This document shows, one piece after another, positions 38,101-44,100 of a stretch of DNA of 64,000 nucleotides; the first letter of the stretch is position 1; each line of letters starts with the position of its first letter. The notes beneath the pieces were generated by a model. It ran no database searches. It was not told the origin of the DNA and worked only from the letters and a program-made list of their open reading frames with translations. The DNA comes from Ridgeia piscesae (taxonomy: Eukaryota > Annelida > Polychaeta > Sabellida > Siboglinidae), in NCBI GenBank assembly GCA_025642075.2, contig JAODUO010000130.1:440001-504000 (forward strand). Direction: 5' to 3'. The position numbers were made by a program, and so were the translations under genes.

Positions 38101-41100
38101 GGTTAGCGTAAGGTCATATAGATTTGTTTCAGTTGTTGACGATCTGCCAGAATTAATAAGAATAATGTGAAACACCTGAACTATTTCTGTACTTTCAGAG
38201 GATTTCACTCGTGAGCAGTTTTGCAGCATCACTCTTCATAGGTGACTACGCACCCATTGACGAGAGTGATGGGTCAGGCATGAACCTTCTGGACATCAGG
38301 AGGAAGCAATGGTCACAGAAATGTCTCGATGTGAGTGATAATAGGTTATCCTACTTTTTTGCTAGTATTCTGCTACATTCTTTTAATTGACCAATTTATA
38401 ATGGCTTGGTTAAAATGTTATTGTCAACTATTCAGCCATTTTTACAGAACAATGAGAACATTACTTCCAGACTAGCATCTCTAGGTTGGCATTAAGGGTG
38501 GTCACTGCCAGGGTGTTCTTCATCCTCGATTGCTTTTTTACATCCCAGGTTCAAACAGGATATACATTAAAGCGATCTTCAAGTCAGATGCCTGGTGCAG
38601 TTTTAAACTGTGAACCTGGGCAGATGTTCTAATGGGGAAACTAAGCATGTTTCATGAAGGGCAGGTGGTCAGTTGAGCTAGGTAGGGGTCATTACAAGTA
38701 ATAATAATCCTTCGAGTGCTATTAATTTAGTATTAATATAGTTTATGTATAAGTAATTAAGAAATTAGTTTGTTGTATGTTTGTGTAGTTGCTCCTCTTA
38801 TAAGGCAGGCCTGACATTAAGCTTTTTTATCCACTGGCCCGGGGGGGCAGTAGATTTGAAAAAGTTACTGGCCCCCCAAAAGTTACTTGCCCGAATATTG
38901 TAAAGAAAATATGCTGCTACCGAGGTGCCCATCGCTTTAGAAGACCAAGTTCCAACAGGAGTGACACCATGAAGACTTTCTGAAGCTCTTATGTTGCATA
39001 TTTTTTTCAATATTAATTGTTTAGATTGCAACAATAAAAAGAGAAACCTCGACGTGAAATGAAATTGTTTAGTCATGGTCTCAGTTTGCTAATATAAAAT
39101 CCGAGGCAACTTTCACACTATACAATTTTAGCGCATTTATAGACTATTACATGGATTACTACATATTTCGAGAAATTTAATATCAACCTTAATGACTACA
39201 GTCAATGTCTTCTGTCAGTGTTGTGTCTCTTCTACATGTCACATAATAAAGTCAGTTTAAATTTGAAAAATAATATATAACACAAAAACGTAAAAAATAT
39301 AATATTATTTATTACAGCCTGCACTAAGGCCATTTTATGAGCTGGGACATTATAAAAATAAACTATTTTCATATTTAATATTAACAAATGATTTACTCAT
39401 TGACACTTTCTATTAATAGTTGGGGTTTGAAACTATAGCTGTCTGTCATGAAAAACATTTCTTAGTTTTGGTTGTACCTGAAAACTGTTATTGCAGAATC
39501 AGGCATATGTGATACCATGATAAATGAGCATTAGAATGCAGATAACCCGTGCCCCATTTAATGACAGGCTAGCCTAAGACTATGTAAACATCGCATCGGT
39601 GTGCGAGGCTGAGGGCCCACGTGCACCGGTGACAGTGTGAATGCTGTCCAGAACACTTGCACTCTTTCTTTCAACGATTGTATTACAAAATCCACCGCTG
39701 CAGGAATGGTCTTTTACAACACTGCAAACGTTTGACTGTATAACAAATTGCGTAGATGTTTTTCCATTACGGAATGTGCACTAGCATTTTATCATTCATG
39801 CAGACAACAACGACATCGCCTACCACCCATAGCCAACGGCAAGGTGTAACACGATTGCTGATTGGGTGAATAATGAGTGTTTCCCACCCGCCAATCATGC
39901 GGGCGTTTACAAAATATGATTTCCACAGAGCATGGACGTCGTTGTATATGCACAACAACAGTTTTAGAACAGTTATGGTAATAAGTTATAGATAAAATGT
40001 AACAAAACGAACGTTAATAAATAGACTAATGATTATTAAGGTAGTTCTGTTTCTGTGAAGGGTCGGGTTACGGAAACGTCGACTGTGGTCAGTAAGGGAT
40101 TGAAACCACTGGCCCACCGGGCCGTCGGGTTACGGAAACGTCGACTGTGGTCAGTAAGGGATTGAAACCACTGGACCACCGGGCCGTCGGGTTACGGAAA
40201 CGCTGACTGTGGTCAGTAAGGGATTGAAACCACTGGCCCACCGGGCCAGTAGAATTTAAACACCGCTAGCCCGACAGCTTTAAAACACACGTCGGCCCAT
40301 TGGGCCAGTACCAATGTCGAGCCCTGTAAGGACACTGATTGATGATATTATTTTCTGCACGTTGATATTGAATTTCAGATGCTATACAAATAATTAAAAT
40401 GGACAAAAACAATTACTTTCTTTTCACAATGATTGAATTGTAAACCAGTAACAATAATGAGATGTTTACACGATTTAGTGGAAAGAATTATTTTGTATTT
40501 GAACAGGTATTTTTTTCACATGTTTATTCTTGCACAATTGTTCAGCTGTATTTTAAATAAGGTTCTACGTTGAGATAGGTGATGTCAATGCACCTGTTGT
40601 TTTCCAGGCCTGTGCCCCTGATCTAGAGGACAAGCTTGGTCATGTCGTCCCGGCCTATGAGTGCATAGTAAGTATACGATATATTCACTATATCTTGTCA
40701 ACTTGTTTATTTGTTTACTGGTCAAATGAAACATCACGTTTTGAATTTGTTGACTACACTGTATTAGCTTTGGTTTTGTGTTGGACCACTGAAATATTTA
40801 CCTATATTGTTGTCATTTTGATGTGAGCTGCATGTGTCCTTACATTGCTGACAGATATGATGTGATGGAAGGTTATATCTGTTGTCTAGGGAGTTATATC
40901 TCCTTACATGGCTGACAGATATGATGTGATGGAAGGTTATATATGTTGTCTAGAGAGGTATATCTCTTACATGGCTGAGATATGATGTGACGTAAGGTTA
41001 TATCTGTTGTCTACTGACTAAGTAGTTATATCTCCTTACATGGCTGACAGATATGATGTGATGTAAGGTTATATCTGTTGTCTAGGGAGGTATATCTCAT

Positions 41101-44100
41101 TATAAGACTGACATATTATTTTGTGATGTAAGATTATATCTGTTGTCTAGGGAGGTATATCTCCTTACATGGCTGACAGATATGATGTGATGGAAGGTTA
41201 TATCTGTTGTCTAGGGAGGTATATCTCCTTACATGGCTGAGATATGATGTGACGTAAGGTGATATCTGTTGTCTACTGACTAAGTAGTTATATCTCCTTA
41301 CATGGCTGACAGATATGATGTGATGTAAGGTTATATCTGTTGTCTAGGGAGGTATATCTCATTATAAGACTGACATATTATTTTGTGATGTAAGATTATA
41401 TCTGTTGTCTAGGGAGGTATATCTCCTTACATGGCTGACAGATATGATGTGATGGAAGGTTATATCTGTTGTCTAGGGAGGTATATCTCCTTACATGGCT
41501 GACAGATATGATGTGATGTAAGGTTATATCTGTTGTCTAGGGAGTTATAGCTCCTCACATGGCTGACAGATATGATGTGATGTAAGGTTATATCTGTTGT
41601 CTAGGGAGGTATATCTCCTCACATGGCTGACAGATATGATGTGATGTAAGGTTATATCTGTTGTCTAGGGAGGTATATCTCCTTACATGGCTGACAGATA
41701 TGATGTGATGGAAGGTTATATATGTTGTCTAGAGAGGTATATCTCTTTACATGGCTGAGATATGATGTGAAGTAAGGTTATATCTGTTGTCTACTGACTA
41801 AGTAGTTATATCTCCTTACATGGCTGACAGATATGATGTGATGTAAGGTTATATCTGTTGTCTAGGGAGGTATATCTCATTATAAGACTGACATATTATT
41901 TTGTGATGTAAGATTATATCTGTTGTCTAGGGAGGCATATCTCCTTATATGGCTGACAGATATGATGTGAGGGAAGGTTATATCTGTTGTCTAGGGAGGT
42001 ATATCTCCTTACATGGCTGAGATATGATGTGACGTAAGGTTATATCTGTTGTCTACTGACTAGGTAGTTATATCTCCTTACATGGCTGACAGATATGATG
42101 TGATGTAAGGTTATATCTGTTGTCTAGGGAGGTATATCTCCTCATATGGCTGACAGATGTGAAGTGACGTAAGGCTGTATCTGTTGTCTAGGGAGGCATA
42201 TCTCCTTATATGGCTGACAGATATGATGTGACGTAAGGTTATATCTGTTGTCTAGGGAGGTATATCTCCTTATATGGCTGACAGAGGTGAAGTGACGTAA
42301 GGCTGTATCTGTTGTCTAGGGAGTTATATCTCCTCATATGGCTGACAGATATGATGTGATGTAAGGTTATATCAGTTATCTAGGGAGGTATATCTCATTA
42401 TAAGGCTGACATATTATTTTGTGATGTAAGATTATATCTGTTGTCTAGGGAGGCATATCTCCTTATATGGCTGACAGATATGGCTTCTCCTTGGAATGCA
42501 GAATCATAGCATTCACCGGCGATAATCCAGGTATAATATTATCTTTTTTCACATAAACCATTTTTCCAGTCCAATTTTGGAGGCAGACCCACCTCCATGA
42601 TATAATATTGTGACTGTTTCAATTTAATGGCAGTAGGTTGTTTGACTTTCTTTACTTGAAGGTCATTGTTCATCTCAAGTAAGATGTTGTTGTAAAATAA
42701 AACTTAGGATAAACTATACATACGATTTATTTAGATTAAAAAACATGTACATTAATAATTTAGGTGACTTTCAAAAGAATTCATATGAAATGATCTGTTC
42801 TTTCTGTGATTGTAATGCAATTATTCACTCTTTCTTGTTGTTCCAAATGTTTCGCACTACAGATCTGAATGAATTAGCTTTACTCAGTGACCTATGACCT
42901 TCTGTGGCCTATGACTTTCTCTGACCTGTGACCTTCTCTGACTGGTCTGTTTGTGTGTGTCAGCATCCCTGGCCGGGATGAGGCTGAAGGAGGGAGACAC
43001 TGTGGTGAGTCGCCGTCTACTTCACAACTCTCTCTGCTCTATCGGTATCACAATGCCAAGATTCTCAGCTTTTAAAGGATAACAAACTGATGTTCAAAAC
43101 ATGAAACATGCTTAAAATAAAACTTACAAAAAACTTAGCAAAATTGTGACATGACAGGCTTACGCCTACCTCCATGCCAATGCCATTTAGCAATATAACT
43201 TTTATTTTGACAATTATACACTATCACAACAAGGGACAACTCTACACTAGGGTCTACCTGTGGATAGGAATGTCACTTTCATTCAATCTTCATCATGTTG
43301 AACTAACAGCAAGTGTTGGTGCAGGTGTATGAAGCAGTTGTCGACATTTGAACAAGCCCACGTGGTATTTGTAACTGTGCTGTGTGTTTTTTAATTGTTG
43401 GTAAATATTACTTTCATGACTTTCAACCTTTTAAATTATAAACTGTTTATAGTTTTCACTTATTACTTTTCAGAAACTTAGAAATTTATTTGATTGTATT
43501 TTTAAATAATTTTTTCGCTCGCAGTGTAAAAGGTAAATTCTTATGTAGTGCAATATCCAATCATGAGGATGATGTAAGACCACAATAAGGTGCTCATCCA
43601 CCACTCCCCGACCAAAGAGTACCATTTAAAAGCAGCATTATGCAGGTTGTCTGAATTTCTGTGAGCACATATGTAGTGAGGAGTGATTAGAAATGATGTT
43701 TTCATGCAGCGTGGCATCAGAGCTGTCAAAGTACGACAGCTGTCAGTCGGTGCATTTCTGCATATTAATACAGTTGTTATTTTGCTTGGTGATGTAATCA
43801 GGGGCAATCCGTGGGTGGTTCAAGCAGAAATGGAGGGGTGTAAGGTTTGAAAGAAATTTGTGGGAGCCTGAGATATTAAAAGTTCACAAATGTTTCACAG
43901 AACTTCTGTCTAAGGAGGGTAAATATGCTGTGAAATTGTCAATAACAGAGCTCTTCAAGATTAGTAGGAAATTAAGGAAACGTTATAATGGTCGCCTATG
44001 GAAAATGTAAATGTGGTCTGACTCCGGATTGTTAAAAGCGCTTTACATTTTACTCCCTGGCAGACCTGTTTAATCGAACACCATCACAGCTGCTCTGGGA

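Follow-up and report, generated by a model that had tools for sequence, protein, structure and literature searches.

XYLB gene of Ridgeia piscesae and the array that ends inside exon 10

The stretch of Ridgeia piscesae DNA analysed here (64 kb, called the window below) carries on its + strand a gene that was assigned by homology and reading frame to XYLB, which encodes a xylulokinase. Its exons were located by tblastn with human XYLB, and the splice sites were then predicted from homology and frame (Table 1). The resulting frame of 531 codons contains no stop and no frameshift across the 19 exons. All XYLB matches in the assembly (16/16) fall on a single contig, so a second haplotype for comparison is absent.

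Among the matches listed, the closest full-length relative is the xylulose kinase of Lamellibrachia satsuma (P0001, 82%). In two protein searches, covering the best 120 of 2536 and the best 120 of 404 matches, only this protein and the Ridgeia piscesae gene model NP493_130g04012 (P0014) exceeded 65% identity. Wherever their exons coincide, P0014 and the window are in agreement, and the model joins the residues ECI directly to the 13-residue start of exon 10, which speaks for use of the last acceptor described below. However, P0014 is a faulty prediction, with several exons missing, intron 6 read into and a wrong join after exon 10. This weakness counts against our main account, P0014 being a gene prediction and not a transcript. 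Intron 6 apparently has a GC donor, GAG/GCAAGT (window 36492-36493), and this is where P0014 reads into the intron.

The 47-residue peptide of exons 9 and 10 matches human xylulose kinase (4bc2) with an E value of 2.6e-12, and 11 database proteins, including one from Ridgeia piscesae itself, could be aligned over the segment. This conservation indicates that the exon is old and that the array next to it is derived from the exon. In the L. satsuma protein, the 11 residues at the start of exon 10 read GDISSYMVDRY.

Exon 1, with its start codon, donor and surroundings, is found twice, at 25716-26163 and 26601-27065. The two copies are identical in 437 of 466 aligned columns and include two blocks of 100% identity (152 and 138 nt). 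The start of the second copy coincides with the edge of the compared stretch, and the repeat is possibly longer. This may be a recent duplication or a haplotype artefact.

Table 1. Features of the XYLB locus in window coordinates (a slash marks the exon-intron junction)
Feature	Position	Strand	Remarks
XYLB, start codon to stop	26029..52009	+	19 exons, 531 aa; exons chosen by homology and reading frame
XYLB exon 9	40608..40667	+	ends ...AYECI; donor ATA/GTAAGT
64-bp minisatellite	40837..42482	+	25 junctions (the real acceptor plus 24 decoys); four-unit A-B-C-D blocks of ~262 bp
Partial first array copy	40837..40888	+	5' edge, ahead of the first TCTAG junction
Unit 16 (D) and exon part of unit 17	41866..41964	+	98/99 identical to 42384-42482, which spans the real junction
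Unit 24 (D type)	42384..42448	+	immediately 5' of the real exon; would provide branch point and real acceptor
CTGAC, branch-point-like	42406..42410	+	precedes the real acceptor by 40 nt; lies in the portion of unit 24 that stems from the exon
Real XYLB exon 10	42449..42530	+	82 nt, of which the opening 34 nt form the final array copy; donor CAG/GTATAA

Tandem Repeats Finder reports the array from 40837 to 42482 with period 64, 25.4 copies and, at a higher order, a period of 262 bp, so that it begins 8 bases before the position first given (40845). Minisatellites consist of many head-to-tail copies of a unit of ~10-100 bp, as is found here with 64 bp x 25.4. Cutting at GTT(G/A)TCTA defined 25 junctions, from 40889 to 42448, the last being the acceptor of the real exon 10 (TCTAG/GGA, at 42448/42449; the donor of this exon is at 42531). 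A typical unit is made of ~30 nt of intron tail followed by the first 34 coding nt of exon 10. When searched with 20-nt flanks on both sides, exon 10 had 25 matches in the window, itself included; exon 1 had 2, and each of the 17 remaining exons had 1.

Junction cutting, window matches and comparison of the units bear out the original prediction that the unit combines the exon 10 acceptor with 34 coding bases. They also agree with it in placing the real exon at the end of the array, as its last unit, with 24 decoys upstream once the real junction is subtracted from 25. The repeat unit does hold exon 10 codons, since units 17 and 21 are identical to the start of the real exon at 34/34 nt.

The 24 decoys belong to four types, often arranged in the order A-B-C-D. 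There are 12 A units of 64 nt, 4 B units of 61-62 nt with a 2-nt deletion in the exon part, 4 C units of 71 nt in which a 7-nt insertion abolishes TCTAG, and 4 D units of 65 nt with a drifted exon part. The decoys thus vary: TCTAG is intact in 20/24, and in 4/24 the insertion has destroyed it. An exact 25-base pattern gave 10 matches in the assembly (628,048,202 bases, 4,875 contigs), all within the array, and Rfam gave 0 matches at the gathering level for 40500-42800. A different Ridgeia assembly (574.96 Mb, Illumina) is described in PMC9921365, which also describes an RNA library from vestimentum muscle.

The stretch 41911-41964 is identical to the real junction at 54/54 positions, including 20 nt of intron. 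Because of this identity and the longer one of 98/99 (Table 1), the coding edge of exon 10 is shown to have exchanged sequence with the array, and it is still involved in array turnover. Variants of the decoy AG and of the decoy codons were inspected for selection; the units are too interrelated for independent events to be counted.

Splice signals of the decoys and choice of the last acceptor

Splice sites were scored with weights based on human data, and all scores given here are approximate. On this scale the real acceptor reaches 1.1 and the decoys up to 1.2, while the donor of the real exon 10 scores 0.7 versus 2.0-3.6 for all 20 decoy donors. Both results run against our main account, and on these approximate scores signal strength finds no support as the means by which the last acceptor is chosen. 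The small size of the decoy exons is a weak barrier as well: exon 11 of XYLB has 41 nt and is spliced within the same gene, so size offers no clear obstacle.

The motif CTGAC, which we take to be branch-point-like from its resemblance to the consensus, precedes the acceptor by 39-40 nt in 21 of the 25 cases. It corresponds to the exonic GCT-GAC of the preceding array copy. The four acceptors without CTGAC are those of C type, because the B unit that precedes them has lost these bases. In A units an AG follows CTGAC immediately, and in D units that AG is gone; consequently, the acceptors that follow a D unit (5, 9, 17 and the real one) have a single AG between CTGAC and the acceptor. This may give the real acceptor a mild advantage, which three decoys would have in common with it.

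A GTAAG or GTGAG site is present 36-42 nt past the acceptor in 20/24 decoys, and 4/24 are without a donor. The expected donor-like sequence is therefore found in most units, although exactly as GATGTAAGG in only 8/24, and the 41-nt spacing, which had been supposed to make the micro-exons uniform, occurs in only 7/24. If read through, every decoy (24/24) reaches a stop after 10-41 codons. The original prediction that all decoys would add the same 11 residues did not hold, for the exact 11-residue start of exon 10 is encoded by 6/24 decoys (units 5, 9, 10, 13, 17 and 21). Joined to the real exon 10, the decoy micro-exons lead to a stop in 15 of the 20 donor-bearing decoys, but the remaining 5/20 would keep the frame open: units 4, 8, 16 and 24 (42 nt, adding 14 residues) and unit 17 (36 nt, adding 12 residues). 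To regard all decoys alike as poison exons, as was originally proposed, is therefore an oversimplification.

Our main account, which we consider probable, is that duplication of the junction gave rise to the 25-unit array and that the last acceptor is used through exon definition, the decoys being weak and no dedicated mechanism being required. The sequence shows that about 64 bp across the junction of intron 9 and exon 10 were duplicated in tandem. The duplicate then grew, partly in four-unit blocks, into a minisatellite of 25 units whose last unit is still the working edge of the exon. Exon definition is an established principle of splicing, and the array is most likely tolerated through it. 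The last acceptor would be paired with the real donor at 42531, and be favoured, because it alone lies at 82 nt, a usual exon length, from this donor. From the nearest decoy acceptor to the real donor, the exon would measure 147 nt. The decoys would behave as weak pseudo-exons, and mis-spliced mRNAs would mostly be degraded. A dedicated selection mechanism would then be unnecessary.

Alternatively, the array may act as a splicing attenuator, in which decoys divert transcripts into stop-bearing micro-exons and the array length sets the XYLB output. We regard this as unlikely, although 20/24 decoys have both acceptor-like and donor-like ends, 15 of these 20 carry a stop and the decoy donors score above the real one. 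The open micro-exons (5/20) and the decoys without a donor (4/24) speak against it, and nothing was seen that indicates conservation of the array or selection for it. An extended form seems quite improbable: a length-variable attenuator in which almost all units have their own acceptor and an exon-derived branch point, most also have a donor, and hairpins form on the sense strand, where the array length would set the share of transcripts that decay and exchange would rewrite 11 residues of the protein.

Predicted RNA folding and further alternatives

The consensus unit contains a perfect complementary pair of 8 nt, ATATCTGT/ACAGATAT, which is also present in the real last junction. A second perfect pair of 8 nt, ATGTAAGG/CCTTACAT, was found by eye; the sequence in the real exon is CCTTATAT. 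In the sense orientation, a consensus stretch of 95 nt folds with -33.9 kcal/mol (z -4.74), and 0/200 shuffles were as good. With shuffles that preserve the tandem structure, z is -3.48 in sense versus -0.74 in antisense. Folds were ranked for 25 of 35 arrays, those with a consensus unit of at least 24 nt, with 60 shuffles each, and the 10 arrays with short units were dropped. The XYLB array comes first of the 25, the next sense z being -0.88 and the lowest antisense z -1.98, with the sampled arrays compared irrespective of their orientation to genes.

Such folding could suggest that hairpins in the units keep the decoys out of reach and guide splicing towards the last acceptor. The polypyrimidine stretch of the decoys is indeed unpaired with a mean probability of only 0.22 (n=24), compared to 0.45 (0.26-0.64) at 17 other XYLB acceptors, and values of 0.21 or lower are found at 2% of 324 other positions of the XYLB gene. 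However, the real acceptor is equally buried (0.21), and its polypyrimidine stretch is unpaired at 0.27 when the array is removed. Since the decoys and the real acceptor are buried to the same degree, and the latter almost to that degree once the array is removed, the fold does not choose the last site, and RNA structure as its selector is unsupported. The natural last junction is also less striking (z -1.84, with 8/200 shuffles as good; together with the whole exon z -1.41, with 23/200). The predicted fold belongs to the junction itself, and steering by hairpins is very unlikely.

There is equally little chance that the array harms splicing and that XYLB is being lost in Ridgeia piscesae. The real acceptor is favoured neither by score nor by fold, as such a loss would allow, but 19/19 exons are without stop or frameshift. 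An assembly artefact, with a wrong length or order of the array, appears just as improbable. Tandem arrays are hard to assemble and exon 1 is also duplicated nearby; nevertheless, the sequence continues plainly from the array into the exon and the units differ in ordered types, as in a true array, the copy number itself being uncertain. It is hardly credible that the in-frame decoys (D units and unit 17) serve as optional exons, by which XYLB would gain 12-14 residues. They are open, but the insert would land in a conserved core of the enzyme and only 5/24 decoys qualify.

Relation to known systems and minisatellite background

As read from its sequence, the array is a minisatellite that carries the acceptor of its host exon, the coding edge and a putative branch-point motif, and it is a variant of the splice-site minisatellites of the IFI6 kind, its unit including the splice site of the adjoining exon. 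In IFI6, according to PMC4526556, a minisatellite at the exon edge has units that carry donor splice sites, and its repeats reportedly serve as donors. Both arrays are minisatellites at an exon edge with the splice site inside the units, but those sites are donors in IFI6, whereas XYLB has acceptors together with coding sequence and a branch-point-like motif. No acceptor-type minisatellite was described among the titles found in an incomplete literature search, of which titles only were considered.

Three other systems share some features with the array. Poison exons bring a premature stop on inclusion, and their inclusion is conserved and regulated. Of the XYLB decoys, 15/24 resemble them in combining an acceptor, a donor-like site and an early stop, while 5 of the 20 donor-bearing decoys stay open and 4/24 have no donor; the decoys differ from poison exons in being tandem copies of the gene's own exon edge. 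Arrays of the Dscam type are composed of mutually exclusive tandem exons, each complete and in frame and giving an intact protein. There, as in XYLB, one of many tandem near-copies has to be chosen, but the XYLB copies are exon fragments (the first 34 of 82 nt) that run mostly to stops, 24/24 of them on read-through, and the last copy alone continues into protein. With ordinary intronic minisatellites the array has in common its period, copy number, higher-order blocks and exchange between units, and differs in ending, on its 3' side, in the acceptor and coding sequence of a conserved enzyme gene.

The locus offers a natural experiment, in which a choice has to be made among 25 near-identical consecutive acceptors and the right one is singled out neither by the scored signals nor by the scored fold. 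Since the edge of a coding exon is here an active end of the minisatellite, turnover of the array can carry sequence both into a conserved enzyme and out of it.

In 20 sampled 10-kb stretches of the genome (167.5 kb without N), 29 minisatellite arrays occupy 14.6% of the bases, some of these arrays being of low complexity. The same rule (period 10-200, at least 4 copies, score at least 100) gives 6 arrays and 17.4% of the bases in the window. With about 15% minisatellite in the sampled genome, the XYLB array looks like ordinary growth that has struck an exon edge. In a genome so rich in minisatellites, an occasional seed that spans an exon edge is no surprise, and what is of interest is that the array has survived. 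Given this share of the sampled bases, further exon-edge arrays may exist. Some sampled units have strong splice-like motifs, such as TTTCTTTTGCAG in the sampled stretch L025 (2798-5647). Within XYLB itself, a 19-bp array of ~231 copies (31379-35757) makes up most of intron 4 and ends ~80 nt before exon 5.
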